NCBI GenBank assembly: GCA_938048735.1
Contig: CALIUM010000008.1
Coordinates: 1-64,000 of the forward strand
DNA length: 64,000 nucleotides
Source: an uncultured archaeon
Lineage (GTDB): Archaea; Thermoproteota; Bathyarchaeia; TCS64
Reading direction: 5' to 3'
The position numbers were made by a program, and so were the translations under genes. The notes under the pieces were generated by a model. That model was not told where the DNA came from and searched no databases. It saw nothing but the letters and a program-made list of their open reading frames with translations. Every line of letters begins with the position of its first letter. Positions within the stretch are counted from its first letter, which is position 1. Positions 12,044 to 61,068 of the stretch are shown one piece after another.

Positions 12044-12390
12044 TCAATTAATAACTATTTCAAAGCTTATATTTATTACCTATTCGAGGTATCGATAAGA
12101 AAATAAAAGATCTCTTTATTCCTTCAAGATTTGTGATGTTATAGATCTCCTTCTTACATAATCTCCAAAATCACATTTATATCTCTTCTTTTATATACAG
12201 GGACTCTATCTAACAGGGCATATTCATCGCTTTAAACCTTCTAACCTTTTGTTCCGTCCATCCCCTTCTCATTAGGCTCCATCATCACATATACTTCAAA
12301 GAGAACCTATGAGGCCGGATGTGTGAGCTACCCCCTTTGATAGCCCTCAACCCATGAGTTTGGAACCAATAGACATGAGGGGATTTGAAG
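12044..12390. other. intergenic region, about 350 bp
   Basis: Divergent spacer between the TPR-methyltransferase gene and the small helical-protein gene. AT-rich, with TATA-like stretches, and the GAGGGG Shine-Dalgarno sequence of the downstream gene at about 12377-12382. No RNA gene, repeat or reading frame with a recognisable product was found. Confidence 0.5.
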
Positions 12391-12840
12391 ATGTTCAACT
12401 TGATCAAGTCCAAAAAGGTCCTCGGAAAACTTTATAGATGGTTGAAGATAGAATTATTCGGATTGTTCAGGGGTCTGGAGCTCACGCCTGAGGAAGAGGA
12501 GGAGATCATTAAAAGGGTTGCTGAGAAGATATCGGAATATGGGATGAATGCTGCCGCTATCTTGATGCTGCAGACCTTCAAGCCCATGGCGTATATAGGT
12601 GGGCAGATGGGCCGCTTCTTCATCAGCCCCCTCCTCTACGGCCTGGGGGACAAGATCTCCCTGGGATCCGAGAAGTTATTCATGGTCTTCGAGAATCGAG
12701 ATAACATCGAAAAACTGATCAGGATGCTGGAGCAAAAGGCAGAAGAGGAGACGATGAAGAGAGAAGGGGCGGAGAAGAGGGATATGAATGAGGCGGTTGG
12801 AGGACCATTAAAGAGGTTAAGGCGTCTCTTCGGCATCTAA
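12391..12840 (+). CDS. conserved small helical protein, copy 1 of 3
   Basis: About 149 residues from the ATG at 12391, which has GAGGGG about 9 nt upstream; an in-frame TTG at 12385 is too close to it. After a basic N-terminus comes TPEEEEEIIKRVAEKISEYG, AAAILMLQTFKPMAYIGGQM, GRFFISPLLYGLGDKI and a Glu/Lys-rich tail ending RRLFGI. It shares the blocks EEEEEII, FKP/IKP-(M/L)-(A/T)YIGGQMGRFF, SP and VFEx(R)(D/E)N(I/V)EKL with the protein at 60703, and more loosely with 59784. The middle helix is hydrophobic enough for peripheral membrane contact. The 3' end overlaps the convergent MNT gene by 24 nt. No known family recognised; a link to the nearby membrane cassettes is inferred from location only. 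Confidence 0.75.
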   Translation: MFNLIKSKKVLGKLYRWLKIELFGLFRGLELTPEEEEEIIKRVAEKISEYGMNAAAILMLQTFKPMAYIGGQMGRFFISPLLYGLGDKISLGSEKLFMVFENRDNIEKLIRMLEQKAEEETMKREGAEKRDMNEAVGGPLKRLRRLFGI

Positions 12841-14873: not shown

Positions 14874-15509
14874 CTAATAGGGTATGCCTAATAATGCCCT
14901 TATGAAGTTCACCACGTTCTCTGTCCATGTTCCGAGTGCGGTTATGAACCAGCCGAACTCCATCCCCCAGGAGACACCCAGTCCAGCCATCATTATTATT
15001 CGCCCGAACCTAGCTAGGCCTCCGTAAACTCCTACATGCTCCCTGGTGTATATGAAGTACATTATGGCGCAGAGGGTTGCTATGCCAGCGAATAAGGCGG
15101 AGGCCACCGCGAATGGGACCTTGGCCGCGATCATCTCCTCCCCTATGCTCCTGACCTGCCCAACTATCTGGGCCTCAAGTGCCCCTCCCACAAGGATTCC
15201 TATTCCTATCGCCGTTAGGAGCGCCGTGGGATACCTCGCTATCCATCCCCATGGCGTCAACCTCCCGAAGGTGAGGATAGCTAGGAATAGAGGTATGACC
15301 AAGAGAATCCTCCCAGCCATTATGGAGTCCAGCGCCGTGGTCTTCACTGCTAGGAGGCCGTACATCAGCGAGTGGGCGCAGCCGGCCCCTATGACTATAT
15401 GCTCAATCAGCCTGTAGTATGGGTTTTCCCTCCAGACGAGGGTCATTATCCCGACGGCCATTAGGCTGGACCAGCCCAGCCAGAAGAGTTCCCACGACAA
15501 GCCTCTCAC
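14874..15509 (-). CDS. membrane cassette 1, subunit D (polytopic membrane protein)
   Basis: 211 residues, about six hydrophobic helices. It carries the subunit-D signature near the N-terminus: WRENPYYRLIEHIVIGAGCA, equivalent to YRENIFYRIGEALLVG in copy 2 and YKDNYLYRLAQHIFLG in copy 3. A central RYPTALLTAIGIGILVGGALEAQIV segment (charged RYP/RWP plus Gly-rich helix ending in QI(V/I)RQ) is also shared. It overlaps subunit C by 4 nt (ATGA type), so it is translationally coupled. No known family recognised. The fixed order A-B-C-D in all three copies says it is a structural partner of the complex rather than a passenger. Confidence 0.8.
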   Translation of the reverse strand: MRGLSWELFWLGWSSLMAVGIMTLVWRENPYYRLIEHIVIGAGCAHSLMYGLLAVKTTALDSIMAGRILLVIPLFLAILTFGRLTPWGWIARYPTALLTAIGIGILVGGALEAQIVGQVRSIGEEMIAAKVPFAVASALFAGIATLCAIMYFIYTREHVGVYGGLARFGRIIMMAGLGVSWGMEFGWFITALGTWTENVVNFIRALLGIPY

Positions 15510-16354
15510 TTCCTCCCTGACAGCCTCTTCCCCCAGTAGGCGATGTTCCCTATCAGCACCAGCACTAGGGTGGGGATGGATGCGAGGTTTTTCATGTCTG
15601 TGATCTTCGCCGCGAGGGCTGGCTCGCCGATGAAGCTCTCCATCGCCGCGCCCCCCGTCGGGCCTGATAGATATCCCTTGGTCATCCCCGCCACCCAGTA
15701 GGATACCGTGCTCATCTCGTTCCCTGAGGCGGTCATCCAGAGCTGAGGAATCTCAGGGTGGGTGGCATACCACTGCCTCACATACTTGTCCATGGCTGTG
15801 CCCGTGGAAAAATTAACGAAGATCGCGGAGAAGTCCTTCCAGCTATCAACCTTCTGCATGAGTGGGATCTGGTCTAGTGGGGTTCCCAGGTAATCTGTTG
15901 AGACCCTGGCGCGAATGCTGTCTCGGAATCCGGCCACCATGACCTCCTCCCCTGGGACATAGCCTAGGAAGACATAGTTCTCGCCGTACTTCACGCCGAA
16001 CCTCTTCGGGTTAGCGTACTCTATACCCCAAAGGGAGGTGGGAGCGGCGTCGGCGTAGACTGCGACTATGACCACGTTTATCTTTTTAGACCAGAGGTAC
16101 TTGAGGGTGGCCGTGAAGCTTCCCTTGGTCTCATCCCAACCGCTTCCCGACATCTCCTGGAAGAATAGTACGTTCGACCCTGGAGGTATCTCCTTTATCG
16201 CTTTGATATAATCCGCGGCTGGAGCTCCCACGGGCACCGGAAGCCCGAGGGGGTAGAGTATGGGGATTATGAGGCACGCGAAGACCGCGATCGCCACACC
16301 CCACTGCGGGACGTCCAGGAGCCTATCCCAAACTGTCTTCTCCTTCCCAGCCAT
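15506..16354 (-). CDS. membrane cassette 1, subunit C (membrane-anchored alpha/beta domain)
   Basis: 282 residues: one transmembrane helix near residues 17-38, a soluble domain of about 200 residues, and a second helix near the C-terminus (LVLVLIGNIAYWGKR). The soluble part has alternating strands and helices (GSNVLFFQEMSGSGW, INVVIVAVYADAAP) and blocks shared with copies 2 and 3: KYGENYVFLGYVPGEE (KYG.(D/N)(Y/W)VN.G(Y/W)(V/I)(P/A)G), STDYLGTPLDQIPLM (xDAYGNxIxxLPL(M/I)), and STGT near residue 186. With a helix at each end, the domain lies on one side of the membrane; I infer the outside but cannot prove it. Function unknown; no catalytic motif recognised. Confidence 0.8.
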   Translation of the reverse strand: MAGKEKTVWDRLLDVPQWGVAIAVFACLIIPILYPLGLPVPVGAPAADYIKAIKEIPPGSNVLFFQEMSGSGWDETKGSFTATLKYLWSKKINVVIVAVYADAAPTSLWGIEYANPKRFGVKYGENYVFLGYVPGEEVMVAGFRDSIRARVSTDYLGTPLDQIPLMQKVDSWKDFSAIFVNFSTGTAMDKYVRQWYATHPEIPQLWMTASGNEMSTVSYWVAGMTKGYLSGPTGGAAMESFIGEPALAAKITDMKNLASIPTLVLVLIGNIAYWGKRLSGRK

Positions 16355-16366
16355 TCCGCTACCACC

Positions 16367-17002
16367 TCATATTACCGCTGTTCTCTCCTTCTGTATGATG
16401 GTTCGCAGGCATACGACGACGCTTATCAGGGCCGCTGTGAGGACTGCAACTCGGGCTGCTGGGGTCATGACGTACCTCAAGAACCAGTCTCCGATGCCGG
16501 TCATGGGTGGGAATATGGCGCATATGATGGGCATCTCCTTCAGGAAGTAGGACATAGCCCCTATGAGCAGGGCTAGGGCCTCTAGGTTGGAGACCCTCAT
16601 CGCGCGGTATACGCCCATCGTCGAGAAGATTAGGTTCAGGCCCCAGAGGGTGGTAGTGGCCGGGATAATCGTCCTCATATACATGGTGACATACTGGGTA
16701 CTACTTAATCCTATTCCATATCCTATACCGAGGAAGACGAAGAAGGCTACGATGGCAACTATGCTGTAGTATCTCGCCCAGGGCTCACGAGAGGGGGGTT
16801 TCACGATTCTTAGTGAGTGGTATCTCAGCATAAGGGCCGAGCCCAGGAGGGTAACAAAGTTATATATTATCACCCCCCAGGTCAGCATCTCCTTCCTGAA
16901 ATCGGCTAGGGGTCCCAATGCGATGAAGTATTCAACTATCAAGATGAATGCTATGATGGAGATTATGTACATGGGGATCTGCGTCCTAATGACTACCGCC
17001 AT
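16367..17002 (-). CDS. membrane cassette 1, subunit B (polytopic membrane protein)
   Basis: 211 residues, about six transmembrane helices. Shared with copies 2 and 3: an LxRYH segment after the second helix (LMLRYHSLRI; FRYHLNNI; LARYHVALI), followed by a basic loop and a VFLGIGYGIG-type helix, and a C-terminal G(D)W...(V/T)P/MT...R motif before the last helix, here GIGDWFLRYVMTPAARV. It starts 11 nt after subunit A and ends 12 nt before subunit C. Copy 1 is the most divergent of the three B proteins by eye. No known family recognised; a membrane scaffold or channel part is only inference. Confidence 0.78.
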   Translation of the reverse strand: MAVVIRTQIPMYIISIIAFILIVEYFIALGPLADFRKEMLTWGVIIYNFVTLLGSALMLRYHSLRIVKPPSREPWARYYSIVAIVAFFVFLGIGYGIGLSSTQYVTMYMRTIIPATTTLWGLNLIFSTMGVYRAMRVSNLEALALLIGAMSYFLKEMPIICAIFPPMTGIGDWFLRYVMTPAARVAVLTAALISVVVCLRTIIQKERTAVI

Positions 17003-17013
17003 CTCCTACCCCC

Positions 17014-17790
17014 CTACATCTTTAAGAGGCTATTTAGCGCCGGGTTTCCCATAAGGCCCAAGATGATGCCGATGACTCCTAGGGCTATCAGGAACATCTT
17101 CACGACATCCTCCCCAGCCAGGCTGGCGGTCATCCCGGGATCTCCAGACACCAACGTTCCGGCTGCTAGAACCTCCTCACAGATCAGGACATAGTCACAG
17201 GTTATGGCCTGCCCATACATTGCCGTCCACCTCGTGGTCCCCCCGATGTTTATCGCACCTATCTGCCTAGCCACAGCGTGGCTCTGGATCTCCGTGTAGA
17301 AGACCCCAATCTGGACGTTGAGTGCTACGTTGTTCCTGAGAACCGTCCCACACCTGGCGATCTTATAGGCAGACGGACCATAATATAGGATGTTCTCCTC
17401 CTTATACAGCTCAGGCTTCCCCTCCTCTCTATAAGCCTCCCGGGCTATCCCCTGGACCAGGGGGATAATCTCAGCAACCCCTGGGAGGCTCGTGTAGACC
17501 GGGACCTCATGCTTGGCTGCGAGCTTGAGCGTGTACTTATAGATGTTCAGGGCGGAGACGACGGCTGGCCCCCACTCTCCCGAGATCTGGCCGAAATCGC
17601 CTGGTGCATAGTGCATGGGTCTGCCCATCTCCGCGCACCTCCCTATCCCCTCCTCGATGGCATCTATCGCAGGTATCTTCCGAATCTTGGGTAGAGGCCT
17701 CCCCTTCGAGACAAGCCATAGGTAGTACCCCATCATCGCAGAGAGAAGTGCTACAACTATCAGTTCGGAGATAACACCTGCTTTAAGCAT
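17014..17790 (-). CDS. membrane cassette 1, subunit A (DUF6754-like)
   Basis: 258 residues; a transmembrane helix at about 10-28 and another at the C-terminus flank a conserved domain. Conserved with copies 2 and 3: KIRKIPAIDAIEEGIGRCAE followed by MGRPMHY, YGPSAYKIA, INIGGTTRWTAMYG, and CDYVLICEEVLAAG followed by SGDPG and GEDVVKMF (consensus CDY..I.EE..AAG...SG.P.......G.D..K). I recognise the DUF6754-type pattern; the function of that family is not known to me. The conserved Cys-Asp-Tyr/Glu-Glu cluster could be a functional site. First gene of the operon, with an AT-rich promoter region just upstream of 17790. Confidence 0.82.
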   Translation of the reverse strand: MLKAGVISELIVVALLSAMMGYYLWLVSKGRPLPKIRKIPAIDAIEEGIGRCAEMGRPMHYAPGDFGQISGEWGPAVVSALNIYKYTLKLAAKHEVPVYTSLPGVAEIIPLVQGIAREAYREEGKPELYKEENILYYGPSAYKIARCGTVLRNNVALNVQIGVFYTEIQSHAVARQIGAINIGGTTRWTAMYGQAITCDYVLICEEVLAAGTLVSGDPGMTASLAGEDVVKMFLIALGVIGIILGLMGNPALNSLLKM

Positions 17791-36120: not shown

Positions 36121-36777
36121 TTACTCCTTTTTTATAAGGTTGTCCACTATTATCAGTATTATTGCGACTATCGAGGCGTAGAGGCCGGGTGGGCGGACTA
36201 CAGTAGGTATCAGTGATATCGCGAAGCCTATGTTGGACATGAGGAATAGGCCGAGGGTGGTTCCGAAGCAGATCATCATGGAGTAGATCCCTAACTTTGC
36301 GACAGGGGCTAGGGCGCCCTTATGCTCGAAGGTGTAGAGGAAGTATGCTAGGGATGTTATGGCCGTCACTAAAAGGATGAGGTTATTGACACCGGTGAAA
36401 ATGTCCTTGGTAAATAGGCTCCCAATGTCGAGCTGCCTTACAATCTGGGCCATTACGGCCCCCTTCATCGCGACCCCTAGGCCCGCTCCTGAGAGGAGGG
36501 CTATGGGCCACCGGCTAACCCACCAGAGGCTCTTGGAGAACCTGGTATACATCATGAGGCCGAGGGCCACCGCTATCAGTGTCGGGCTGAGCCACTGCTG
36601 CTTTACCACGATAGGGATGTATATCCTGTTGAAGAGCACGTCTAGGCCCACCTTGACCGATATGGCTAGGGCAAGGCCGACGAGCAGAGCCTCGCCTATC
36701 CTGTAGAATATGTTCTCCCTGTAGAGGAAGGACCAGGCCATGAGGATAACTATGCTCATGACAAGGGCATCTATCAA
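36121..36777 (-). CDS. membrane cassette 2, subunit D
   Basis: 218 residues, about six transmembrane helices. Subunit-D signature YRENIFYRIGEALLVGLALA near the N-terminus and WPIALLSGAGLGVAMKGAVM with AQIVRQLD after the third helix, as in copies 1 and 3. FEHKGALAPVAKLGIYSMMI corresponds to FTREHVGVYGGLARFGRIIMM-like segments of copy 1. Overlaps subunit C by 4 nt. No known family; function unknown. Confidence 0.8.
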   Translation of the reverse strand: MIDALVMSIVILMAWSFLYRENIFYRIGEALLVGLALAISVKVGLDVLFNRIYIPIVVKQQWLSPTLIAVALGLMMYTRFSKSLWWVSRWPIALLSGAGLGVAMKGAVMAQIVRQLDIGSLFTKDIFTGVNNLILLVTAITSLAYFLYTFEHKGALAPVAKLGIYSMMICFGTTLGLFLMSNIGFAISLIPTVVRPPGLYASIVAIILIIVDNLIKKE

Positions 36778-37610
36778 CCCTTACCACCCCTTCTCCTCGT
36801 GAAGTACCAGATGTTCCCGATGATTATCAGTCCGACCCCGTATATGTGGGATAGGGTCTGGGCGTCGAGGGTTCTTAGGCCCTCTCCGGGCATCCCTGTG
36901 AGCTTCTCATATCCCGCCGCATCGCTCTCAGCCCCTATATACCCCGTTATCAGCCTCTTCTCGTAATATGGAAGCGTCCAGGGGACCGTCGCGATGAGCG
37001 TGTTGATTATCAAAGGCTTGCCGTAACCTCCAAGCTGCCTGGGGTATGGGTCCGGGCTCGTCGAGGTGGAGAACCCGATCAGGGCTATATCGGAGATGGA
37101 GCGGACATCTCTCAACATGGGCAGTTTATCGATGGTGTTTCCATACGCGTCTGTTTTGACGATGCCCTGGAAGTCCTTAGCCATGGCCATGAGGGTGGTC
37201 TCGTATCCCGGGATCCAGCCTAGGTTCACGTAGTCCTCGCCATACTTCAACCCCCTAGTGTCTACATACTCCCTCAGGATCCTCTCGGCGTTGAGGGAGC
37301 CATCCACGCTGTAGGTGGTCACTATGATCACCTTGATCCCCTTCCTCCTGATAAGGTCGAATAGGTGGCGGTATATGGCCACCTCGGCTGGGCCTACCTG
37401 CCCCCAGGTGCCGACCGAGAAGTCGGTTATCCACATCGCGATGTCTCCGCTTTTCAGATCCTCTATCTGCCTGTATACCTCAACGGTGTTTGAGCTGATG
37501 CTTATCGGGAGGCCTAGGGGGGAGATAGCCGGGATGGCGATCAATATGATGAAGATCATGAAGACAGCCCTATCTACCAGTGGAATACCGGTTCTCTGCA
37601 CCTCATCCAC
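36774..37610 (-). CDS. membrane cassette 2, subunit C
   Basis: 278 residues from a GTG at 37610. N-terminal helix (VFMIFIILIAIPAISPLGLP), soluble alpha/beta domain and C-terminal helix (IYGVGLIIIGNIWYFTRRR). Blocks shared with the other copies: LKYGEDYVNLGWIPGYET, VKTDAYGNTIDKLPMLRDVR, IGFSTSTSPDPYPRQLGG and TLDAQTLSHIYGVG (C-terminal; (M/L)DAQ(S/T)xSH in copies 2 and 3). KVIIVTTYSVDG is a hydrophobic strand. Starts 8 nt inside the end of subunit B. The DAQ-SH motif in front of the last helix is a possible functional site. Confidence 0.8.
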   Translation of the reverse strand: MDEVQRTGIPLVDRAVFMIFIILIAIPAISPLGLPISISSNTVEVYRQIEDLKSGDIAMWITDFSVGTWGQVGPAEVAIYRHLFDLIRRKGIKVIIVTTYSVDGSLNAERILREYVDTRGLKYGEDYVNLGWIPGYETTLMAMAKDFQGIVKTDAYGNTIDKLPMLRDVRSISDIALIGFSTSTSPDPYPRQLGGYGKPLIINTLIATVPWTLPYYEKRLITGYIGAESDAAGYEKLTGMPGEGLRTLDAQTLSHIYGVGLIIIGNIWYFTRRRGGKG

Positions 37611-38214
37611 CTCCCAGATATGAACGTTCTCTGCCTATTATTGCCCTCATGAAGAGGACGATCATGCTGATCCCCATCCCTATCAGGATCCCCCTATATG
37701 CCCCAGTGTTAGGAACGTTCTTTATCCAATCGCCTACTGTTATCAGCTGAGGGGAGAGCGCTCGGATGCTCGGGGTGTTGTAGAGCAATATAACTACGGT
37801 GACGATGAGCAGTAATATGGCCGTCGGAGACTTCAGCCTCGCCCCCCTGAGGAAGACGGTGTAGGTGTAGAAGCCGACGAAGGATGATATCGACATGCTC
37901 AAAGGCGTGTAGAGCTTGGAAAAGATCCAGTCATATATGCTCTTATTCAGGTAGGCTATTGCAAGATAAAATAAGAAGCTTCCGATTACCAGTACGCTGT
38001 AATATACGTCTCTCCCCTTCCTTATGTTGTTTAAGTGGTATCTGAAGAGGTTCACAACCCCTATAAGGTATGAGAATGTAACGAGTATAACCACCCAGCT
38101 CAAGAGCTCAGAGGCCTGCACGGATAGGTTTCCAGTGTAGTAATCAATCAGCGGAAGCAAGGAACCTATGGCGAACAGAATTATGGGGATCTCTATCCTC
38201 CTGAGAAAACTCAT
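37603..38214 (-). CDS. membrane cassette 2, subunit B
   Basis: 203 residues, six transmembrane helices. Shared B features: FRYHLNNIRKGRD after helix 3 and VGDWIKNVPNTGAYRGILIG before the last helix (xxDWIxxVPNxxxYRxIxIGxG in copies 2 and 3). Ends with a basic RAIIGRERSYLGGG tail, matching LILRKEVTWMG in copy 3. Lies 6 nt after subunit A and overlaps C by 8 nt. No family known to me. Confidence 0.8.
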   Translation of the reverse strand: MSFLRRIEIPIILFAIGSLLPLIDYYTGNLSVQASELLSWVVILVTFSYLIGVVNLFRYHLNNIRKGRDVYYSVLVIGSFLFYLAIAYLNKSIYDWIFSKLYTPLSMSISSFVGFYTYTVFLRGARLKSPTAILLLIVTVVILLYNTPSIRALSPQLITVGDWIKNVPNTGAYRGILIGMGISMIVLFMRAIIGRERSYLGGG

Positions 38215-38220
38215 CTCACC

Positions 38221-39000
38221 TCACCACGCTGAGAGATAACCTATCAGGTTGAATCCGGCTGTGGAGGCAGCGGCCGCCAGTATGAAGAGAGCTATAAGGA
38301 TTATCTTGTAGAGGTCCTGACCCCTGAAGTAGCCAATGGAGCCCGGGCTCCCCTCGAGGGCGGCCCCTGCTACGTAGAGTTCCTCTCCTATCAACAGGTA
38401 GTCGCAGACGCATATCATGATCGGGATGTAATAGAGCCTAGGGGTTCCTCCCAGCTGCATGCATCCAGCTATGGCTCCCGCCCCGAGTTGGTTTATAGTC
38501 TCCCATAGGGTCGCCCCGAATATCATGTTCACGGCGGGCCTCTCCCTCAATATGTACCCCATGACCGAGGTCATGAAGGCCGTCTGATACTCACCAACAT
38601 AATACACCATGTCTGGGGAGTACATGTCTGGATTCCCACTCTTCATATAACCAGCCTTGATGATGTCCTGAGCCACGGGCACGAGGTACGCTCTAGGTGT
38701 AGTGTATCTTAAATAGACCCCTGCCTTGCCGCAGGTCTCAGCCACCTTGCCGAGGATGGCCAACCCAGAGAGCGTCATGGGGGCATACTGGTCATCGGTT
38801 CCTCCGATCCCAGTGGTATAATGGACCGGCCTGTTCATCTCCGCAGCCCTCCCAACAGCCTCCTCAATGGCCTCCAGCGCTGGAAACTTCCTGATGCGAT
38901 ATCTAGGAACTCTTTTCTCAGCGCTCTTCATGTAGAAGTAAGCCAGTCCGATGCATATCACCATCAGTAAAAGCTCAAACTTTTTCCCCGAAAGAATCAT
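38221..39000 (-). CDS. membrane cassette 2, subunit A (DUF6754-like)
   Basis: 259 residues. An N-terminal helix (LLLMVICIGLAYFYMKSAEK), then RIRKFPALEAIEEAVGRAAE and MNRPVHYTTGIGG, TLSGLAILGKVAETCGKAG, FGATLWETINQLGAG, MQLGGTPRLYYIP, and CDYLLIGEELYVAGAALEGS followed by RGQDLYKIILIALF. The block order is identical to copies 1 and 3; copies 2 and 3 look closer to each other than to copy 1. First gene of the operon; an AT-rich region lies upstream. Confidence 0.82.
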   Translation of the reverse strand: MILSGKKFELLLMVICIGLAYFYMKSAEKRVPRYRIRKFPALEAIEEAVGRAAEMNRPVHYTTGIGGTDDQYAPMTLSGLAILGKVAETCGKAGVYLRYTTPRAYLVPVAQDIIKAGYMKSGNPDMYSPDMVYYVGEYQTAFMTSVMGYILRERPAVNMIFGATLWETINQLGAGAIAGCMQLGGTPRLYYIPIMICVCDYLLIGEELYVAGAALEGSPGSIGYFRGQDLYKIILIALFILAAAASTAGFNLIGYLSAW

Positions 39001-50364: not shown

Positions 50365-51678
50365 TCACGGTCGGTCATCCAACAACTCAATGAGCTCCTC
50401 CACTTCATCACGCCGTCTGCCCCGTCTACGGTAGATCTCCCATCCAAGTTCAGTCAGTTCATCTGGAGTAAGTTGGAGGAACATTTCTGTAAACTCTTCA
50501 TAATTCTTTATCCTCTCCTCGATCTGTTTCACCCTCCTCTCCATCTCATCCCGTTCCACAAACAGTTTAGTCACCAGTGTATGGGAGTCCATCAGTTTCA
50601 AGGTCAAGTCTTCTATCTTCCGTTTAGCCTCTTCGAGTTCAGATTGGAATCTTGATTTGATCGTATGGAAATCTTTTGGGGCTGAGATGTAGAGGTAACT
50701 CTCACCCTTCCTATAGGCTTCGATGAGCTGTTCCTTTGTATAACGGCGGTAGGAGGCGTCTAGATACCCTCTATGACCGATGAATGCTTCCACTACATCT
50801 TCAGGAACTCCTGCCTGTTTCAACTGTGATTGGAACCATTTACGGAGCATGTGGATATGTAGTGTCCTGCGGTTGGTGGATGGGTCCCGATCCTCTAATC
50901 CAGCCTTCCTGACGGCATTGTTCCACATAGACATGGCGACATACATTGAGAACGGGAAGACTCGATCATCTACCTCCCTCTTCAACCCCCGTCCAAAACC
51001 GGTTTTGGTAAGCCCCTTACCCTTACCTGATGCTGACTTGATATACTCATCCCTGACCTTCAACCACTCAACTAACGCCTTCTTCGCCTCCTCTGAGATG
51101 AAAGTGTTGTAGCCGTCTCCAGACTTCGTGTACTCGCCACGGATTGTCACCTTCACCGGTTCGTGAGTAAGGTCTAGGTCTGTGATTCGGAGTTGTAGGG
51201 CCTCCCCTATGCGGATCCCAGATGTTGCGAGGAACAGGAAGAGAGCCCTCCCTTTAACATCACAGTGGGTGAGGATTCTCCCTAAGAGTTCCGATGTCAG
51301 TTCCGCTTCATTAGTCCTAGCTCGGCTTCCCTTCGGAAGCCTTGAACGGAGGAGTTTGGTTTGTCTCTTCGTCAGTTCGACATCTAAGACATACTCAATC
51401 CAGTTCTTGACTGTTGACATGTAGACCATAGCACTTGCTGGTGGACGATCGTATAGTGAAGCCGCAAAGCTCAACAGGTCTCTGAACCAATCCCGTCCAG
51501 ATCTGCACTCTTCAACATATTTCTCAGCTACACTTTCAAGATCATCTATTAAAGATCCGTAAACGGTTTTCAGGAACTGTTTCACACTCGCCATACATAT
51601 ATGTCTCGTGTTGTTGTTTCGGTATGTTTCTAACCACCCATTTATGTATCCTTTCATCTGTATAGTTATTATGTTCAC
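50365..51678 (-). CDS. tyrosine recombinase 2 (integrase) with C-terminal coiled coil
   Basis: 437 residues. N-terminal SAM-like core-binding domain about 1-125. Catalytic domain: Arg in LATSGIRIGEALQLRI near 152, HxxR in HIHMLRKWFQSQ near 277, GH in FIGHRGYLD near 300 and Tyr in ASYRRYTKEQL near 306-310. A coiled coil follows (RKIEDLTLKLMDSHTLVTKL etc.). All catalytic parts present, so it is probably active and is the element's integrase. The fragment at 47226 is a truncated relative. It sits at the right end of the element, transcribed inwards. Confidence 0.85.
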   Translation of the reverse strand: MNIITIQMKGYINGWLETYRNNNTRHICMASVKQFLKTVYGSLIDDLESVAEKYVEECRSGRDWFRDLLSFAASLYDRPPASAMVYMSTVKNWIEYVLDVELTKRQTKLLRSRLPKGSRARTNEAELTSELLGRILTHCDVKGRALFLFLATSGIRIGEALQLRITDLDLTHEPVKVTIRGEYTKSGDGYNTFISEEAKKALVEWLKVRDEYIKSASGKGKGLTKTGFGRGLKREVDDRVFPFSMYVAMSMWNNAVRKAGLEDRDPSTNRRTLHIHMLRKWFQSQLKQAGVPEDVVEAFIGHRGYLDASYRRYTKEQLIEAYRKGESYLYISAPKDFHTIKSRFQSELEEAKRKIEDLTLKLMDSHTLVTKLFVERDEMERRVKQIEERIKNYEEFTEMFLQLTPDELTELGWEIYRRRGRRRDEVEELIELLDDRP

Positions 51679-53393: not shown

Positions 53394-54536
53394 TTATTCT
53401 GTAACTATTTCTACGTCAGCTCTAGGAATTATAACTCTTTTTCCATCTTCTAATTCCACTTCCACTACTCTTACAAGTGACTCTGTTTCTATCTTCATCA
53501 ATTCCACTGGGAGCCGAACGACTCTTCCTAATTTTCCGAAATATGGGTACCTTATTATCCTGATAATGCTTCCAACTTTCATTTTTCCTTCTTCAACATC
53601 TTCATCCTCGATTTTCATTTTTCCACTTAAATTTTTAGGTATTATTATTTCTGGTCTTAGTACCCCTGCTCTGACCTGTGTTGCTCCATTTATAGCCGCG
53701 ATTTTCCCTTCATTATCCTTTAATATTTCGAATGCCTTATCTGATATTGGAAGTTTTCCAAATCCCTCTGTTAATATCAATGTAAATCCCAATTCTTCCC
53801 TTCCAGTTATAGCTACTCCCATTCTAGTACCTATTAGCTTTTCAAGGTCTTCTATATCAGCTCCACCCGTTATTATTCCCTTAACACCTATTTTCCTCGC
53901 CTTCTCTAAAGCGTCTAGGTTTACAAATGATCCTCCTACTATTATTTTCCCATGATCACTTTCGAAGATTTTATCTGGGGTAAGTATATCTTCTGGGTTT
54001 GAGACGGCTACTCTGAGTTCTCCGAACCTCTCTCCTGAAAATCCTATGATACCCTGTACATAGGCGGCCCATGTCCCAACGACGACGGCCTCTTGGGGTA
54101 TCACCTCATCTATTTTTCCCCTAACATAAGCAGCAACCTCAACCGGTCTTTGAGGTTCTCTTATTGTGATGTTTCCTGTTATTTCATTTATATCCTCCAC
54201 ATATCCATCTATAGGTGACAATACTGTCTTGTTTATTAAACCAAATGCTGCTCTTAACCTTGCTATGATCTCTCCTTTCTTCACAGGATCACCCTTCTTC
54301 TTAAGGAGATATCGAGGCACCTCTTCCGTATCTACATCTAGTAGTTCAGCCACCTTCAGTATCTGGGGCATCCCCTCCAGATAGCATCTCGCCACAATAG
54401 TATCAAACTCAACAGGGTCTCCTACTTTAACCAATATCTGGCCTTTAACCGGAAGACTTCTGAGCTTCCTCACATAGGTAAGAGGTGTGACCCTTAATCC
54501 AGGTGTATATGCGAAGCTCTCTTCTGAGACGCTCAT
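53394..54536 (-). CDS. barrel-sandwich/KOW-domain protein, partner of the GlmL-type ATPase
   Basis: 380 residues from the ATG at 54536, which overlaps the ATPase stop (ATGA) with GGAGAAAGGG upstream; an ATG at 54551 is less likely. N-terminal: short repeats (GQILVKVGDPVEFDTIVARC) and a barrel-sandwich-hybrid unit like biotinyl/lipoyl or RnfC-type domains (KKGDPVKKGEIIARL, SPIDGYVEDINEITGNITIR). Middle: alpha/beta (GIIGFSGERFGELRVAVSNP, GKIIVGGSFVNLDALEKARK). C-terminal: a KOW-type motif (GSIIRIIRYPYFGKLGRVVR). No known name. Its fixed, coupled position after the ATPase points to a shared complex. AT-richer than the far end of the same operon. Confidence 0.75.
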   Translation of the reverse strand: MSVSEESFAYTPGLRVTPLTYVRKLRSLPVKGQILVKVGDPVEFDTIVARCYLEGMPQILKVAELLDVDTEEVPRYLLKKKGDPVKKGEIIARLRAAFGLINKTVLSPIDGYVEDINEITGNITIREPQRPVEVAAYVRGKIDEVIPQEAVVVGTWAAYVQGIIGFSGERFGELRVAVSNPEDILTPDKIFESDHGKIIVGGSFVNLDALEKARKIGVKGIITGGADIEDLEKLIGTRMGVAITGREELGFTLILTEGFGKLPISDKAFEILKDNEGKIAAINGATQVRAGVLRPEIIIPKNLSGKMKIEDEDVEEGKMKVGSIIRIIRYPYFGKLGRVVRLPVELMKIETESLVRVVEVELEDGKRVIIPRADVEIVTE

Positions 54537-56362
54537 AAACCCTTTCTCCATTCTTCAATTTTACTTTCTGGATACAGCTCTATGGAGTCATACCAACTGA
54601 TTAAAAGCTTCTTTCTTTCTTTTTCATCTTCTGGGAGATATATGGGTCTTCCTCTTCCGTCAAATATGACCCCGACCACTCCTCCACTGATAGTCCTTTC
54701 AACCGATTTTCCAAAGCCATTTCCAAAGTCAAAGTTGCTCGAGGGATTAACTCTAATTTTAACATTTATTTCTTTGGGGATAGGTTCTCTTATTATCTGT
54801 CCGAATGATAGGTCGAATGTCTTTTTTTTATCATCCCATTCTAGTTCGATGGTTGCTACCTTTGCACCTATCTTGTCTGTTCCCACGCCTGCCACAATGG
54901 TTCCCATGTAGACTAGGCACTCCTTCTCGAATATATCTAGGGCGATCTCTTTTTGGATTGTTGAGAGGACCCCGAGGTGGGGCATCATGAATACGCTGTC
55001 CTGGAGGAGAGAGGTGAATCCCCTCGGCTGGAATGCGTCTGTGAGTATCATCATAGATTGATTTCTTCTCGGTGCTCTCGATAGGAGCCCTCCGGTTCCT
55101 ATTATATGGCTCACATCAAACATCTCTATATATGTGTCCTCGGGTTTAACCTCTTCGAATATGTCCGATATAGTCCTCTCCTTCTTAACCCCCTTCAACT
55201 CCCTTGCCAAGTATTTGTGATGGTTGAACCCCAGCCTTATAGCCTCCCTAGCTAGGGAATGTTCGATCACCAGATCTTCCACCGTTATTGGGATTGTTGT
55301 GGGCCGTATCATCTTGTTGTAGACCACCTCCATTAGATCTTTAACATCCATCTCGAATGGGATCCATCTCAGGACGTTCTCCGCACCCGCCTCTTTAAAG
55401 ACATTTCCGACGCTGTAGCTCATCCCTAGATTGGCGCTGACCGTGCGTAGGAACCTGCCCTCGAAGTTCGAGTATATGTTGGTTGTCGCACCTCCCAAAC
55501 CGACTCCTATCACGTTCACCCCCTTCATCTCGGAGAAGGTCCTGATCATCATCCCCTCACCAGCGGGTGTAGGCATGATTGAGGTGGATACGAGCTTCTT
55601 CAGCTTGTCATATCCAGGTGCATGGGCCATAACATGCTCCATGAAGAGATACAGTATAGCATTTCTAGCCTGCTCCACCTCCTCGACCTCTATCTTTGGG
55701 CGAAGGTTGTCGGTTATTATGACTTCAAAGTTGTCCCTGAGCATCTTCTTAACCTCTTCTCTCACGGCAACATTGCCAGCATAGACGACGGGTAGGAGAT
55801 ATTCAGCCCCTAGCCTTGGCCTTGGCCTCGCCTTCGAGAGCAGCTCGGTCATCTCCAGAACATGAGTCTTATCTCCCCAATCCGTCCCCCCGGCCAGGAG
55901 GACGATATCCGGCCTCAGAAACCTAAGGGTCTCTATCTTATAGTAGTCATCCCTTCCATCGTCGACAGATAACACATCCATGACTATCGCCCCGGCTCCG
56001 AGGGCGGCCCTCTGGGCGCTCTCCGCGGTTATGGATTTGACAACCCCTTGGACAAGCATCTGGAGCCCTCCCCCAGCGCTACTCGTGGAGACATAGATGT
56101 CCACCCCGACTTTATCCCCCTTGTATGGCATTAGGATAGAGAGCTCCTCCTTGGCGTTATCCATGATCATGTGGCCTGTTAGCTCCTCGACCTCCCTAAT
56201 GGCGTTTCTGACGCCCATGGTGACATCCTCCACGGGCTTCTCGACCGTTGTGGGGGCCTCTCCACTGGCTATGAACCTCCACCGCCCATCTACCTTACCG
56301 AAGAACCTGGCCTTCGTAGTGGTGCTTCCCACATCAGTCGCAAGTATGTAGCTCGGCTCCAT
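54533..56362 (-). CDS. GlmL/MutL-type ASKHA ATPase (orphan)
   Basis: About 609 residues from the ATG at 56362 (AAGGGG just before); the frame is open upstream to 56449 but with unconserved codons. YILATDVGSTTTKARFFGKV is the phosphate-1 motif of the actin/Hsp70/sugar kinase fold; GVGLGGATTNIYSNFEGRFL and IIGTGGLLSRAP are phosphate-2/adenosine-like loops. Matches the 'glutamate mutase L' (GlmL/MutL) family, an accessory/reactivation-like ATPase for B12-dependent carbon-skeleton mutases in bacteria. No glmE, glmS or other mutase gene is in the window. Instead the gene is coupled to the KOW protein and stands head to head with membrane cassette 3, 260 bp away, so I infer an energising role there. 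Confidence 0.82.
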   Translation of the reverse strand: MEPSYILATDVGSTTTKARFFGKVDGRWRFIASGEAPTTVEKPVEDVTMGVRNAIREVEELTGHMIMDNAKEELSILMPYKGDKVGVDIYVSTSSAGGGLQMLVQGVVKSITAESAQRAALGAGAIVMDVLSVDDGRDDYYKIETLRFLRPDIVLLAGGTDWGDKTHVLEMTELLSKARPRPRLGAEYLLPVVYAGNVAVREEVKKMLRDNFEVIITDNLRPKIEVEEVEQARNAILYLFMEHVMAHAPGYDKLKKLVSTSIMPTPAGEGMMIRTFSEMKGVNVIGVGLGGATTNIYSNFEGRFLRTVSANLGMSYSVGNVFKEAGAENVLRWIPFEMDVKDLMEVVYNKMIRPTTIPITVEDLVIEHSLAREAIRLGFNHHKYLARELKGVKKERTISDIFEEVKPEDTYIEMFDVSHIIGTGGLLSRAPRRNQSMMILTDAFQPRGFTSLLQDSVFMMPHLGVLSTIQKEIALDIFEKECLVYMGTIVAGVGTDKIGAKVATIELEWDDKKKTFDLSFGQIIREPIPKEINVKIRVNPSSNFDFGNGFGKSVERTISGGVVGVIFDGRGRPIYLPEDEKERKKLLISWYDSIELYPESKIEEWRKGL

Positions 56363-56583
56363 CCCCTTCAGCTCTCTAACCTGAGGGATTAATATAAAAA
56401 CAATACGTCTTGTGGGTTCTGAACCCCCTCGAATAGCAGGCTTCGGCAACTTAACCTTGATGTAAGGATAAGATTATGCCTTGAAACTCGAGGACACTCG
56501 GCATTTTATCAACTCCACTGGAATTAGTCGATCTCTCAAACATACAAGGCAAGATCCATGAGATCCGATCTCAGACCACGACA

Positions 56584-56596
56584 AAAATATTTATAG
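56584..56596 (+). promoter_or_regulatory. TATA-box promoter of cassette 3
   Basis: AAAAATATTTATAG lies about 30-38 nt upstream of the ATG at 56623, so the transcript would begin at or close to the start codon (leaderless). The 260-bp spacer between the ATPase (minus) and the cassette (plus) is otherwise free of genes, so divergent promoters probably share control. Confidence 0.5.
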
Positions 56597-56622
56597 TACA
56601 ATCAATATTTTAAAGATGGAAA

Positions 56623-57432
56623 ATGTTATTGAACTATCTCCCCGTTGAGCAAGTGATAAACCCTGCAGCTGGAGCCGTTTCCCTGGCTATTCTAATCTTC
56701 CTGTCGCTCTCAGGATACTATTATATGAAGCTTGCAGAGAGGGGTAGAACCTTCCCGGTTAGGAAGATCAGGGCCTTCGAGGCTATAGAAGAGGCCGTTG
56801 CAAGATCGGTTGAGATGGGGAGGCCAGTGCACTACACCATCGGCTATGGAAGCCTCAGGACGGCTCATGCCCCCCAGTACACCGCCGGTCTTGGGGTTTT
56901 AACCCATGTTGCCAAGCTTGCAGGGAAGTATGGAGCAAGGCTGATAGTGACACATGGGGTGCCCGAGGCCATAGCCTCTATTGACGAGATAGTCAGAGAT
57001 GGGTACTTCTCCGAGGGTAGACCTGAGCTCTATAATCCTGTGGACAACGCGAGATATCTCACCGACATCCAGTTCGCCTACGCCTCATCTGCCCAAGCTG
57101 TCATTATAAGGGAGAATGCTGGTGCGAACATAGTTATCGGCCCCTTCTGGGCCGAGTCTCTGATACTGGCCGAGGCTGGGACTATGGTCGGGGCCTTCCA
57201 GATAGGTGGAACCGCCAGGGATGTGCAGATCCCATTCTTCGTACTTGTCTGTGACTATGCCTTCATAGGGGAGGAGATCTTCGCCGCGGGAGCGATGGCC
57301 TCCGGTGACATCCCCACTCTAGCAAGCATTAGAGGGCAGGATGTTGGCAAGCTGCTCTCCATCGTGCTCATAGTGCTCGGGTTGATACTACTTCCTTTCG
57401 GTGTGAAGCTTGCCACATACCTCATGTGGTGA
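56623..57432 (+). CDS. membrane cassette 3, subunit A (DUF6754-like)
   Basis: 269 residues. N-terminal helix (AVSLAILIFLSLSGYYYMKL), then FPVRKIRAFEAIEEAVARSV and EMGRPVHYTIGYGS, QYTAGLGVLTHVAKLAGKYG, SEGRPELYNP, EAGTMVGAFQIGGTARDVQI, CDYAFIGEEIFAAGAMASGD followed by IRGQDVGKLLSIV, and a C-terminal helix. This is the clearest copy. Leaderless TATA promoter. The GRPVHYT and CDY.FIGEE blocks are conserved in all three copies, so are likely functional. Confidence 0.83.
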   Translation: MLLNYLPVEQVINPAAGAVSLAILIFLSLSGYYYMKLAERGRTFPVRKIRAFEAIEEAVARSVEMGRPVHYTIGYGSLRTAHAPQYTAGLGVLTHVAKLAGKYGARLIVTHGVPEAIASIDEIVRDGYFSEGRPELYNPVDNARYLTDIQFAYASSAQAVIIRENAGANIVIGPFWAESLILAEAGTMVGAFQIGGTARDVQIPFFVLVCDYAFIGEEIFAAGAMASGDIPTLASIRGQDVGKLLSIVLIVLGLILLPFGVKLATYLMW

Positions 57433-58106
57433 TGGAAATGAGCGTGATTTGGAGGCGTACAGTTCCGCAGCTCCTCGTGGCCATCATACTTGTTGTGATG
57501 ACGGCCCTCTATTTCCTGTACATAGACAAGACGACCAAGGCGACCCTAAACTATTGGGATCAGCTTCTGATCAACTATTCGATAGTGATAGCGGCTCTGG
57601 CCGCAATCGTTGGAGGGGTTGACCTCGCAAGGTATCACGTGGCCCTGATTATGAAGAGGGAGAGGGAGCAGATCCCCTTCAGTTTAATAACCCTATTCCT
57701 TGAGGTGGTCTGCGTTGTCTTCGCTTTCTATGCACTCGCCACAGGGGTCCCCATTCTCACCCAACCCCAGTTCTCCTGGATATATCTAAACCTACAGGTA
57801 CCCACGAGCTCGGCCATGTACTCTATCTTGGTATTTTACGTTGCTTCGGCTGCCTATAGAACCTTTAGGGCTAGAAATCCTCCAGCCCTTCTCCTACTCA
57901 TAGTAGGTGTCATAGTGATGCTTGGGAACACTAGCTTAGGATTTGTAATATGGCCTGGGTTCACACCCCTGAAGGACTGGATAATGACGGTTCCAAATGC
58001 AGCCGGCTATAGGCCAATAGTCATAGGAGTAGGCTTGGGAACCATCATCCTAGGCCTGAGGTTAATCCTAAGGAAAGAGGTAACATGGATGGGGAGGAGG
58101 GACTAA
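57432..58106 (+). CDS. membrane cassette 3, subunit B
   Basis: 224 residues from the ATG at 57432, overlapping the A stop (TGATG); the frame also opens with GTG at 57426. Six helices; VDLARYHVALIMKREREQIP after helix 2 and LKDWIMTVPNAAGYRPIVIG before the last helix are the B signatures. Ends with a basic LILRKEVTWMGRRD tail. Co-translated with A and C. Confidence 0.8.
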   Translation: MEMSVIWRRTVPQLLVAIILVVMTALYFLYIDKTTKATLNYWDQLLINYSIVIAALAAIVGGVDLARYHVALIMKREREQIPFSLITLFLEVVCVVFAFYALATGVPILTQPQFSWIYLNLQVPTSSAMYSILVFYVASAAYRTFRARNPPALLLLIVGVIVMLGNTSLGFVIWPGFTPLKDWIMTVPNAAGYRPIVIGVGLGTIILGLRLILRKEVTWMGRRD

Positions 58107-58108
58107 AG

Positions 58109-58951
58109 ATGGGTACCTCACTGAAGAGGCTTGACACCATTATAGGTACTAGGCAACTGCTATATACACTACTCATAATCTTCACTTTAATACCGATGTT
58201 CTTTCCTCTTAGGCTTCCAATCAGCATATCAGCTAGGACTAAAAAAGTATACAATTACATAGATAATTTAAAGCCAGGTTCCTATATATTCATAGATTTT
58301 GACTATGACCCTGCCGGTAGAGGAGAGATCGAACCTCAGGCCGTAGCGATGATGAAGCACCTATTCGATAAGAAGTGTAAGCTTGTAATGGCATCCTTGG
58401 GTACAACAGGACCAGTCATGTTCGAGATAATGAGAAAGACAAATCCGGACATATTCGCCGGGAAGGAGTATGGAAAGGACTGGGTTAACATCGGATATGT
58501 GGCGGGGGGTGAGTCTGCGGCAGCGGGTCTGGCTAGGAGCATCTCAGGCACAGTAGCCATGGACGCCTACGGTAACCCCATCGGGAATCTACCTCTCATC
58601 AAAGAAGCAGACAAGGCAGAGCAGTTCGCCCTAGCAATAGTCTTCACCACAGGGACTGATACTCTTTACTACTTCGTAAGACAGTGGTTCACCCCCTATA
58701 AGACCCCTCTAATACTGGGGATCTTGGGAGTAATGGGCCCTGCTGCGGAGCCCTTCGTGGCGGCTGGCCAGGCCGTGGAGTTGATGGTCGGCCAGGTTGC
58801 GGGGGCTGAGTACGAGGTTCTAGTAGGAAGACCGGGAATAGGCCTAGGAGCTATGGACGCACAGAGCACAAGCCACGCCATAATATTGATCTTCATTATA
58901 CTTGGAAACATTATGTTTTGGAGCGTTAGGTTGAGGGGTGAGAAGAGATGA
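58109..58951 (+). CDS. membrane cassette 3, subunit C
   Basis: 280 residues from the ATG at 58109 (GGGAGGAGGG upstream; an ATG at 58085 is within the B gene). N-terminal helix (LLYTLLIIFTLIPMFFPLRL), alpha/beta domain with SYIFIDFDYDPAG, KEYGKDWVNIGYVAGGESAA, AMDAYGNPIGNLPLIKEAD, VFTTGTDTLYYFVRQWF and AMDAQSTSHAIILIFIILGN before the C-terminal helix. Same block order as copies 1 and 2. The 5' third is AT-richer than the 3' part. Confidence 0.8.
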   Translation: MGTSLKRLDTIIGTRQLLYTLLIIFTLIPMFFPLRLPISISARTKKVYNYIDNLKPGSYIFIDFDYDPAGRGEIEPQAVAMMKHLFDKKCKLVMASLGTTGPVMFEIMRKTNPDIFAGKEYGKDWVNIGYVAGGESAAAGLARSISGTVAMDAYGNPIGNLPLIKEADKAEQFALAIVFTTGTDTLYYFVRQWFTPYKTPLILGILGVMGPAAEPFVAAGQAVELMVGQVAGAEYEVLVGRPGIGLGAMDAQSTSHAIILIFIILGNIMFWSVRLRGEKR

Positions 58952-59661
58952 TCGAGGCAATTCAAATATGGCTATCTGCAGCCCTAGTGATATGGATATG
59001 GAGCTTCGTATACAAGGACAACTACCTATACAGGCTAGCTCAGCACATCTTCTTGGGAGCTGCTGCTGGATACTCCATAGGGATCTCCCTAGACAGCCTG
59101 AACAAGACCGCCCTAGTTCCTTTAGCGAAGTCTCCCACAACAAATATGCACCTGATAATCCCTATCATAATCGGGCTGCTCTTCTTCTTCAAGTACTCTA
59201 GAAGATACTATTGGGTGGCCCGCTATGGCGTAGGAATAGCACTGGCCGTAGGAACAGCCCTCGCCTTCAGGACAGCTCCCATGGCGAACATAATAAGGCA
59301 GGTAAACGCGGTTTTGCTCCCCCTCTGGACCCCTGACCCGGTCAAAACCCTAAACAACTGGATTCATGTAGTCATAACCCTAAGCGCCCTGGTATACTTC
59401 ATATTCACTGTAACGCCGAGGGTGGTTGAGGGTAGGCCCACCATAACATACAGGCTCTATGACGCCGTTTTGAGGATAGGCATCTACGGCATGATGGTGG
59501 CCTTCGGCGCCACACTGGCCAACACGATAATGACGAGGCTGGCCTTCTTCATATCCATGAACCTCCAATACCTCCAACCTTATCCACTCGAGTCATTATC
59601 TGCCATAATCCTAGTTGCCATAGCTATACTCTTCGCCATGCGCCGCGCAAGAGCAGGGTGA
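58948..59661 (+). CDS. membrane cassette 3, subunit D
   Basis: 237 residues, about six helices; YKDNYLYRLAQHIFLGAAAG near the N-terminus, RYGVGIALAVGTALAFRTAP followed by MANIIRQVN, and LRIGIYGMMVAFGATLANTI, as in the other D proteins. Overlaps C by 4 nt. Ends with a basic RRARAG tail. A TATA-like and T-rich stretch follows, then the small helical-protein gene 120 bp away. Confidence 0.8.
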   Translation: MIEAIQIWLSAALVIWIWSFVYKDNYLYRLAQHIFLGAAAGYSIGISLDSLNKTALVPLAKSPTTNMHLIIPIIIGLLFFFKYSRRYYWVARYGVGIALAVGTALAFRTAPMANIIRQVNAVLLPLWTPDPVKTLNNWIHVVITLSALVYFIFTVTPRVVEGRPTITYRLYDAVLRIGIYGMMVAFGATLANTIMTRLAFFISMNLQYLQPYPLESLSAIILVAIAILFAMRRARAG

Positions 59662-59783: not shown

Positions 59784-60095
59784 ATGGAGGAGAATAATGC
59801 AACCGACGTATGGCTCTCTTCAATAGCAGAAAAATTGGTCAACCTTAATCTCGACTCGGTGGCCGTCTTCTTCCTCGAGACCTTTGGGCCCATGAGCAAT
59901 GTCTGGAGCCAGCTTGGTAGGCTCCACCTACAGCCTTTATTGATCCTTCTAGGCCCCTCCGGAGAGAGGCTGATGAGCTTCCTAGAGAAGCCGGAGAACT
60001 TGGAGAGGTTTTTGAAGAAGATAGAGGAGGTGAGGGAGAGAAAAACTAGGAGGCCGTGGATGGGCGGTCTATTTAGAAGGTTATTTGGATCTTAA
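59784..60095 (+). CDS. conserved small helical protein, copy 2 of 3 (divergent)
   Basis: 103 residues: WLSSIAEKLVNLNLDSVAVF, FLETFGPMSNVWSQLGRLHL, QPLLILLGPSGERLMSFLEK and ENLERFLKKIEEVRE, with a basic GGLFRRLFGS end. The pattern (helix, F-E-x-x-x-P-M, Q-x-G-R, P, GxxxE, E-x-x-E-N-x-E-x-(F/L)) matches the copies at 12391 and 60703, but EEEEEII is lacking. It follows cassette 3 in the same direction, so it may be part of the same system, perhaps a soluble or membrane-associated partner. Confidence 0.7.
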   Translation: MEENNATDVWLSSIAEKLVNLNLDSVAVFFLETFGPMSNVWSQLGRLHLQPLLILLGPSGERLMSFLEKPENLERFLKKIEEVRERKTRRPWMGGLFRRLFGS

Positions 60096-60244: not shown

Positions 60245-60655
60245 ATGACCAGAGGCATGGGGAGAGTTAGAAGTCCAAACATCACCGATTACATGGCAGG
60301 GGCACTTCTAGCCAACGGGCCTATATGGATGTGGATGATGGCCCTGGGTTATTTCTCTGACTGGTTTTCAGCCCTCTCACCGGCTCTGATCGGGGGGCTA
60401 TCCCTCATCATCTATCTGGCTGGAGGAAGCTTGGCATCCTACCTTGTCTGTAATAGGGCCGAGAGGGGTCTCCTCCTAGCAGCCTTGAAGCTGGTAGCAG
60501 CAGAATGGGCCTTCTACCTCATGATGATAATATCTACCACTCCAGAGCCCTCCCCAGGCCAAGCCTCACCACCCCTCATCTGCTTCATCCTAGGAGGTCT
60601 TATAGGGGCCTACCTCTCCACGAGGAGGAGGCTCAGGAGGCCGAGCGGAGATTAA
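60245..60655 (+). CDS. hypothetical membrane protein, four helices
   Basis: 136 residues; hydrophobic segments MAGALLANGPIWMWMMALGY, LSPALIGGLSLIIYLAGGSL, LAALKLVAAEWAFYLMMIIS and LICFILGGLIGAYLSTRRRL. Basic tail. ATG near a TATA-like sequence (60170-60180). It sits between two small helical-protein genes downstream of cassette 3 and may belong to the same cluster. No family recognised. Confidence 0.65.
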   Translation: MTRGMGRVRSPNITDYMAGALLANGPIWMWMMALGYFSDWFSALSPALIGGLSLIIYLAGGSLASYLVCNRAERGLLLAALKLVAAEWAFYLMMIISTTPEPSPGQASPPLICFILGGLIGAYLSTRRRLRRPSGD

Positions 60656-60702: not shown

Positions 60703-61068
60703 TTGTACTGGGATGTTGAGGTCTCTCCCGAGGAGGAGGAGGAGATCATAAGGAAGGCCGCCGACTTGATCCACAGGTATGGGATGGATGTGGCCGCCAT
60801 CCTCTTCATAGAGAGCATAAAACCCCTCACCTACATAGGGGGCCAGATGGGAAGATTCTTCCTATCCCCCTTCCTCCCAGCTTTCGGAGAGAGGATAGGA
60901 AGGGGGGGAGAAAAGTTCTTCACAGTCTTCGAGAAAAGGGAGAATGTGGAGAAGCTCCTAAGGTTGCTGGAGGAGAAGGCAAAAGAGGAGGAGAAGCCGA
61001 AGGAGGAAAGGAGACTCGAGATCCAGGGAGAAAAAAAGAGAGGTTGGAGGAGGTTCCTCCCCTTCTGA
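60703..61068 (+). CDS. conserved small helical protein, copy 3 of 3
   Basis: 121 residues from a TTG at 60703 (no ATG fits). VEVSPEEEEEIIRKAADLIH, RYGMDVAAILFIESIKPLTY, IGGQMGRFFLSPFLPAFGER and VFEKRENVEKLLRLLEEKAK; basic end GWRRFLPF. It is strikingly close to copy 1 (EEEEEII, YGM(N/D)(A/V)AAIL, KP(M/L)(A/T)YIGGQMGRFF, SP) though the genes are 48 kb apart. So the family is under clear selection. Function unknown. Confidence 0.75.
   Translation: MYWDVEVSPEEEEEIIRKAADLIHRYGMDVAAILFIESIKPLTYIGGQMGRFFLSPFLPAFGERIGRGGEKFFTVFEKRENVEKLLRLLEEKAKEEEKPKEERRLEIQGEKKRGWRRFLPF

Follow-up and report, generated by a model that had tools for sequence, protein, structure and literature searches.

Organization of the locus and of the membrane cassettes

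The window, i.e. the whole stretch of 64,000 nucleotides analysed here, lies on contig C8 of a genome of 1.62 Mb that is 94.6% complete and is archaeal, judging by its RNA polymerase B gene and by its nearest relative, a Bathyarchaeota MAG. In this window an ATPase gene and the gene of its putative adaptor form a pair on the minus strand, divergent from a membrane cassette of four genes (A-B-C-D, cassette 3, 56623-59661, plus strand). Open reading frames, Pfam searches and direct reading agreed with the coordinates and gene anatomy of a first-pass annotation of this DNA. The features are listed below with their basis.

54533-56362, minus: MutL-family ASKHA ATPase of the long, cassette-associated subfamily, 609 aa from the ATG at 56362 (PF13941, 386 bits; phosphate motifs; tree)
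53394-54551, minus: adaptor with predicted barrel-sandwich, swivelling beta/beta/alpha and KOW-like domains, 385 aa (AlphaFold2 model, fold comparison, Pfam on relatives, MutL adjacency)
56363-56622, no strand: divergent intergenic region of 260 bp, each strand bearing a TATA-like box (direct sequence reading)
56623-57432, plus: cassette 3 gene A, DUF6754, transmembrane (TM) segment - Rossmann-like domain - TM segment (PF20539, 235 bits; AlphaFold2 pLDDT 91.4; positive-inside count)
57426-58106, plus: cassette 3 gene B, integral membrane protein with about 5 TM segments (family model, hydropathy)
58085-58951, plus: cassette 3 gene C, TM segment - soluble domain - TM segment (family model, positive-inside count)
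58948-59661, plus: cassette 3 gene D, integral membrane protein with about 5 TM segments (family model, hydropathy)
59784-60095, plus: gene E, small soluble protein (homologues adjoin D and/or sit directly upstream of MutL)
60245-60655, plus: archaeal accessory membrane protein G (recurs at six archaeal loci)
60703-61068, plus: second E homologue (family model)
36121-39000, minus: cassette 2 (A-B-C-D), possible further client (family models)
14874-17790, minus: cassette 1 (A-B-C-D), possible further client (family models)
12385-12840, plus: E homologue close to cassette 1 (family model)

The ATG of the ATPase at 56362 is preceded by AAGGGG, with a TTTTTATATTAAT box further upstream, indicating that the gene model 54533-56362 is sound; a TTG at 56449 is a possible alternative start. 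The first ATG of the adaptor yields an overlap of 19 nt with the ATPase gene, while an internal ATG (residue 6), located behind GGAGAAAGGG (a GGAG-type site), yields a 4-nt ATGA overlap with the ATPase stop. Since the genes overlap with either start, the translational coupling proposed in the first-pass annotation is likely. The shared promoter region that it described was found as well: positions 56363-56622 comprise 260 bp and carry TATA-like boxes for both strands, TTTATAGT for the cassette and TTTTTATATTAAT for the ATPase. A gene of the phage-integrase family (50365-51678, minus strand) lies about 1.7 kb past the adaptor gene and might mark the boundary of a mobile element.

Gene A is a clear member of DUF6754, a Pfam entry that gives no function, and a literature search of partial coverage found no paper mentioning DUF6754. 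The order A-B-C-D was fixed wherever the cassette was complete, that is, in cassette 3 and in the complete cassettes of 20 further stretches. Simple hydropathy, rather than a trained predictor, gave about five hydrophobic segments for B and four to six for D. Counts of lysine and arginine (positive-inside) predicted the soluble domain of A to lie inside, in the cytosol, and that of C outside. In several bacteria, A is extended at its N-terminus by about 100-750 residues, in most cases beginning with a signal-peptide-like segment, in agreement with an outside N-terminus of A. DUF6754 reading frames of 600-1030 aa had raised the suspicion of an ABCD fusion, which was rejected, as these frames represent A with a long N-terminal extension. 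The exported extensions of A proteins in Cloacimonadota (L104, L105, L119) reach 700-750 residues and could face outward. A homology of A with C, or of B with D, was rejected because hhalign detected no relation. A fold search with the model of A returned generic Rossmann matches only (Sir2 with Z 11.6, PGK, GmhA and RCK domains, the last represented by MthK with Z about 9.7 over about 115 residues). Cassette neighbours include some peptidases, amidohydrolases and aminotransferases; naming a substrate from them was rejected, the families being diverse, with no consistent pathway and no null model. The genome contains eight DUF6754 loci, and those on contigs C5, C10 and C15 (L101, L102 and L103) look truncated or frameshifted, representing either decaying paralogues or assembly errors. 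The gene of the small protein E immediately precedes MutL at 30 loci, immediately follows D at 14 and does both at five, and thus ties the ATPase-adaptor and cassette gene sets together.

Family assignment of the ATPase and predicted architecture of the adaptor

The MutL/GlmL family of ATPases has long been held to serve vitamin-B12 enzymes. The window ATPase matched the Pfam family MutL (PF13941) over the entire profile (positions 1-450 of 450) with 386 bits (E 3e-115), above the curated cut-off of 27 bits. It did not reach the cut-offs of the NCBIfam models GlmL (NF040745, 210 versus 475 bits), glmL_fam (TIGR01319, 146 versus 204 bits) and Or-4 (NF040744, 225 versus 600 bits). The best-scoring of these, Or-4, describes a GlmL-related protein of ornithine degradation; no ornithine aminomutase was seen in the gene neighbourhoods examined. 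Among 199 genomes from the phylum of genome G233, assignment by open-frame length and bit score revealed two MutL size classes: short proteins, mostly around 450-490 residues long, with high family scores, and long proteins of about 560-650 residues. A tree built from 112 sequences placed cassette-type and mutase-type MutL on either side of a branch supported at 1.0. The description as GlmL-like in the first-pass annotation thus holds for membership in the MutL family, but not for GlmL proper, from which the ATPase is set apart by scores below the NCBIfam cut-offs and a separate clade. With the GlmL/MutL accessory protein of glutamate mutase (NF040745, TIGR01319) it has PF13941, the ASKHA core and the phosphate-1 motif in common; it differs in being about 120-150 residues longer, in serving a membrane cassette as client and in a conserved extra C-terminal part (G560, G561, G564, D568, R570, P573, W590). 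Judged by sequence and phylogeny, the ATPase falls into a separate long MutL subfamily that tracks the cassette, rather than being a stray GlmL, and adds to the MutL family a form with a new client. Sequence searches against solved structures gave no significant match for the ATPase, A or C, and the profile of the adaptor gave weak matches.

Inspection of the active site revealed the phosphate-1 loop of ASKHA proteins (DxGxTxxK) as DVGSTTTK, while the phosphate-2 aspartate (DxGG) was missing, the motif reading GLGGATTN. The 28 archaeal cassette-type MutL sequences, which form a single clade with support 0.999, read G(L/M)GGATTN, corresponding to the substitutions D288G and D295N. The phosphate-2 aspartate was present in 100% of the bacterial long, fused or second-paralogue, and short MutL groups (DxGGATTD). 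Position 269 is glutamate in the archaeal clade and valine in every bacterial long and mutase-type sequence; a compensation of the lost aspartates by E269 is speculation drawn from a single evolutionary event. A second archaeal MutL paralogue (L199, L200, L201), whose partner is a short adaptor of about 290 aa without the KOW domain, has kept both phosphate-2 aspartates in the three copies read. As the phosphate-2 motif of the archaeal clade is altered, ordinary ATP hydrolysis should not be assumed, and the archaeal subfamily, including the window ATPase, may not hydrolyse ATP normally.

The window adaptor matched no Pfam family at 1e-3, and Pfam KOW gave no match. Its paralogue on contig C9 matched Biotin_lipoyl (1e-4) and RnfC_N (0.013), and a bacterial relative matched RnfC_N with 1.3e-9. 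An AlphaFold2 model built with 45 aligned relatives (pLDDT 87.5) predicted three domains, one of barrel-sandwich type, one swivelling and, at the C-terminus, one that is KOW-like. In fold comparisons, the barrel-sandwich part resembled biotin carrier proteins, NqrA and RnfC, the swivelling beta/beta/alpha part resembled RraA, the C-terminal domain of pyruvate kinase and UPF0107 (Z 8.5-9.6), and the C-terminus resembled KOW5 of Spt5 (Foldseek probability 1.00; Z 7.7, rmsd 1.1 A over 51 residues). As evidence for a fold, Z values close to 8 are modest; the predicted barrel-sandwich is also backed by the Pfam matches of relatives and the KOW-like fold by Foldseek. The earlier description as a barrel-sandwich/KOW protein thus appears to hold in view of the model and of the Pfam matches of relatives, and a predicted swivelling domain, previously unnamed, is added. 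RnfC and NqrA (NqrA Z 7.8, RnfC Z 7.7, over 66-69 residues) may offer a likeness beyond the fold, as they are peripheral cytosolic subunits on the membrane complexes Rnf and Na+-NQR, respectively. No Fe-S or flavin domains were identified in the adaptor, and its swivelling and KOW-like domains are extra. Among the three aligned families, mean column identity was 58% for the adaptor, 33% for A and 30% for C. The far higher conservation of the adaptor fits a common core with variable clients.

Co-occurrence and linkage with cassette and mutase genes

All genome-wide statements rest on family searches. In the phylum of the window, true MutL, adaptor and DUF6754 were present in the same four of 200 genomes and absent from the remaining 196 (Fisher 1.5e-8), the four positives representing few independent events from two genera. 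The first-pass annotation had proposed counting how often GlmL-like genes accompany cassette genes versus mutase genes, and the phylum of G233 provided such a count. All 14 genomes with a long MutL carried DUF6754, compared with two of the 185 others (p 1e-19), while glutamate mutase E occurred in 41 of 65 genomes with only short-class MutL versus 9 of 134 others (p 4e-17). The long-MutL genomes showed no such tendency, with glutamate mutase E in 2/14 versus 48/185 of the others.

A scan of 84,980 species with the adaptor yielded 152 relatives, 80 of which were kept; they derive from archaea (Bathyarchaeota, Sulfolobales, Desulfurococcales, Culexarchaeum and others) and from many bacterial phyla. 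DUF6754 was present in 39 and MutL in 38 of 40 adaptor-bearing genomes. Glutamate mutase E was not detected above the cut-off in any of 41 genomes, i.e. these 40 and the genome of the window itself, where it gave no match at all. The direct search for mutases covered glutamate mutase E and, for the latter genome, the B12-binding domain. In this genome the B12-binding domain matched only two radical-SAM proteins and, below threshold, a single protein of a different kind. The earlier observation that the window holds no mutase was hence borne out and extends to the genome for glutamate mutase E; nor did the search beyond the window find one, the B12-binding radical-SAM gene on C9 being no mutase. 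Genomes usually contained one or two copies of MutL, seven at the most, along with one to twelve cassettes, for instance one MutL and seven cassettes in G205 or five MutL and twelve cassettes in G233.

At the 80 adaptor loci, MutL was present in 62 cases; for the 60 same-strand pairs, the median distance between the two genes was 1.5 nt. Cassette genes were found at 26 of these 80 loci, many of which are cut by contig ends. A cassette lay within the fetched stretch at 13 of 40 loci, compared with 1.26 expected by random placement. In the closest relative (L020), whose adaptor is 94% identical, the divergent layout is kept. Contig C9 of the same genome carries a second MutL-adaptor pair followed by one gene, a B12-binding radical-SAM gene and then A-B-C-D. 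The linkage is thus conserved in related and distant genomes, and the ATPase, initially regarded as an orphan, is not one in the sense that this second pair lies near another cassette. The radical-SAM gene between pair and cassette (L011:6564-8015, minus strand) is adjoined by a gene for a 357-aa protein (L011:8012-9085). Several bacteria have the two genes fused: ten stretches (L183-L190, L197, L198) encode MutL and adaptor-like sequence in one open reading frame of about 916-1148 residues; at L183 such a fusion follows A-B-C-D on one strand after a gap of 76 nt. Some genomes, G062 among them, have the pair far from any cassette.

Taken together, the association between ATPase and cassette is very strong. 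MutL and adaptor form a two-gene unit that extends from archaea to many bacterial phyla, is sometimes a single polypeptide, occurs near one-to-one with the cassette and often lies next to it. Co-occurrence in independent draws from two phyla, recurrent adjacency, fusion and the lack of glutamate mutase E give strong support for linking the ATPase with the cassette rather than with a mutase.

Candidate functions of the ATPase-adaptor pair

The first-pass annotation had suggested that the ATPase energises, assembles or reactivates the cassette machine. That it belongs to the cassette stands, given co-occurrence, adjacency, fusion and the absence of mutase E; the three roles are inseparable by sequence data. 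We give about even chances to the reading that the MutL-adaptor pair acts as a cytosolic module driving a conformational cycle of the DUF6754 cassettes. The MutL-type ASKHA protein and the barrel-sandwich/swivel/KOW adaptor would form one unit serving A-B-C-D and the small protein E. The adaptor would dock the ATPase onto the membrane complex, probably at the Rossmann-like domain that A is predicted to expose to the cytosol, and nucleotide-dependent motion of the ASKHA clamp might reach the outer domain of C by way of B and D. One common module could drive several paralogous cassettes of differing specificity. The most likely use would be a conformational cycle for transport or delivery of a small molecule, with maintenance or assembly close behind. 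A more specific version, a new class of membrane machine in which the actin/Hsp70-fold (ASKHA) protein acts through its adaptor as the common power unit of many paralogous cassettes and the archaeal active site has been rebuilt (D288G, D295N and V269E as a possible replacement acid), is put forward tentatively, at less than even chances.

ECF transporters, in which one energising module serves several paralogous membrane clients, offer an analogy with which the gene counts agree (1-7 MutL genes and 1-12 cassettes per genome). They use P-loop ABC ATPases, whereas the nucleotide-binding protein considered here is a MutL-type ASKHA protein. The literature searched, of partial coverage, described no counterpart of the whole system. 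If the module drives the cassettes, they would constitute an ASKHA-powered membrane machine, for which we know of no precedent.

A maintenance chaperone is a serious, if less probable, candidate: ATPase and adaptor might assemble, load or reset the cassette, or swap a damaged cofactor, without powering its cycle, in line with a proposal for GlmL that takes the diol dehydratase reactivase as its model. The nearest named families are indeed mutase accessory proteins, and GlmL has been called a chaperone for glutamate mutase reactivation (PMC4682846), a statement beyond which our literature search on GlmL found little. Few MutL genes per many cassettes would fit a shared chaperone equally well, and the altered phosphate-2 motif of the archaeal clade is more in keeping with a slow switch than with a motor. 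However, A-D give no sign of cofactor or radical chemistry, and the tight conservation of the adaptor, together with its occasional fusion to the ATPase, suggests a structural rather than an occasional partner.

We regard it as unlikely that the pair is a sensor or regulator that reads the nucleotide state and gates the cassettes, or whose KOW domain contacts RNA, the ribosome or RNA polymerase instead. RCK domains such as that of MthK among the fold matches of A, the resemblance of the KOW domain to Spt5/NusG and the loss of the aspartates in archaea would agree with such a role, but the RCK likeness is one of many generic Rossmann matches and the KOW end is missing in the second archaeal paralogue and most fused forms. 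That the ATPase is a GlmL-like factor of a B12-dependent mutase placed beside the cassette by chance is largely refuted and highly improbable: the Pfam family name MutL and the B12-binding radical-SAM gene on C9 speak for it, but glutamate mutase E is absent from its own and 40 other genomes, the B12-binding matches of its own genome are radical-SAM proteins or sub-threshold, its scores stay below the GlmL, Or-4 and glmL_fam cut-offs, the long subfamily tracks DUF6754 while the short one tracks mutase E, and the tree split has support 1.0.

A family annotated as accessory to B12 mutases comprises a whole sister clade that, in archaea and about ten bacterial phyla, has another client, one bound to the membrane. 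The annotation of MutL-type proteins is thereby corrected and DUF6754 gains a first functional context. The findings point to an undescribed membrane system that is driven or maintained by an ATPase, and the role of MutL-type ASKHA proteins becomes testable on a second, unrelated client. Two further proteins were noted in the surveyed genomes. A recurrent small membrane protein of about 145 aa, termed F, is encoded near bacterial MutL (L045:1190-1627 and 12 other loci) and has no Pfam match. A 1233-residue protein (L191:5306-9007, minus strand) contains a divergent MutL domain from about residue 690 onward, and its genome encodes mutase E as well.
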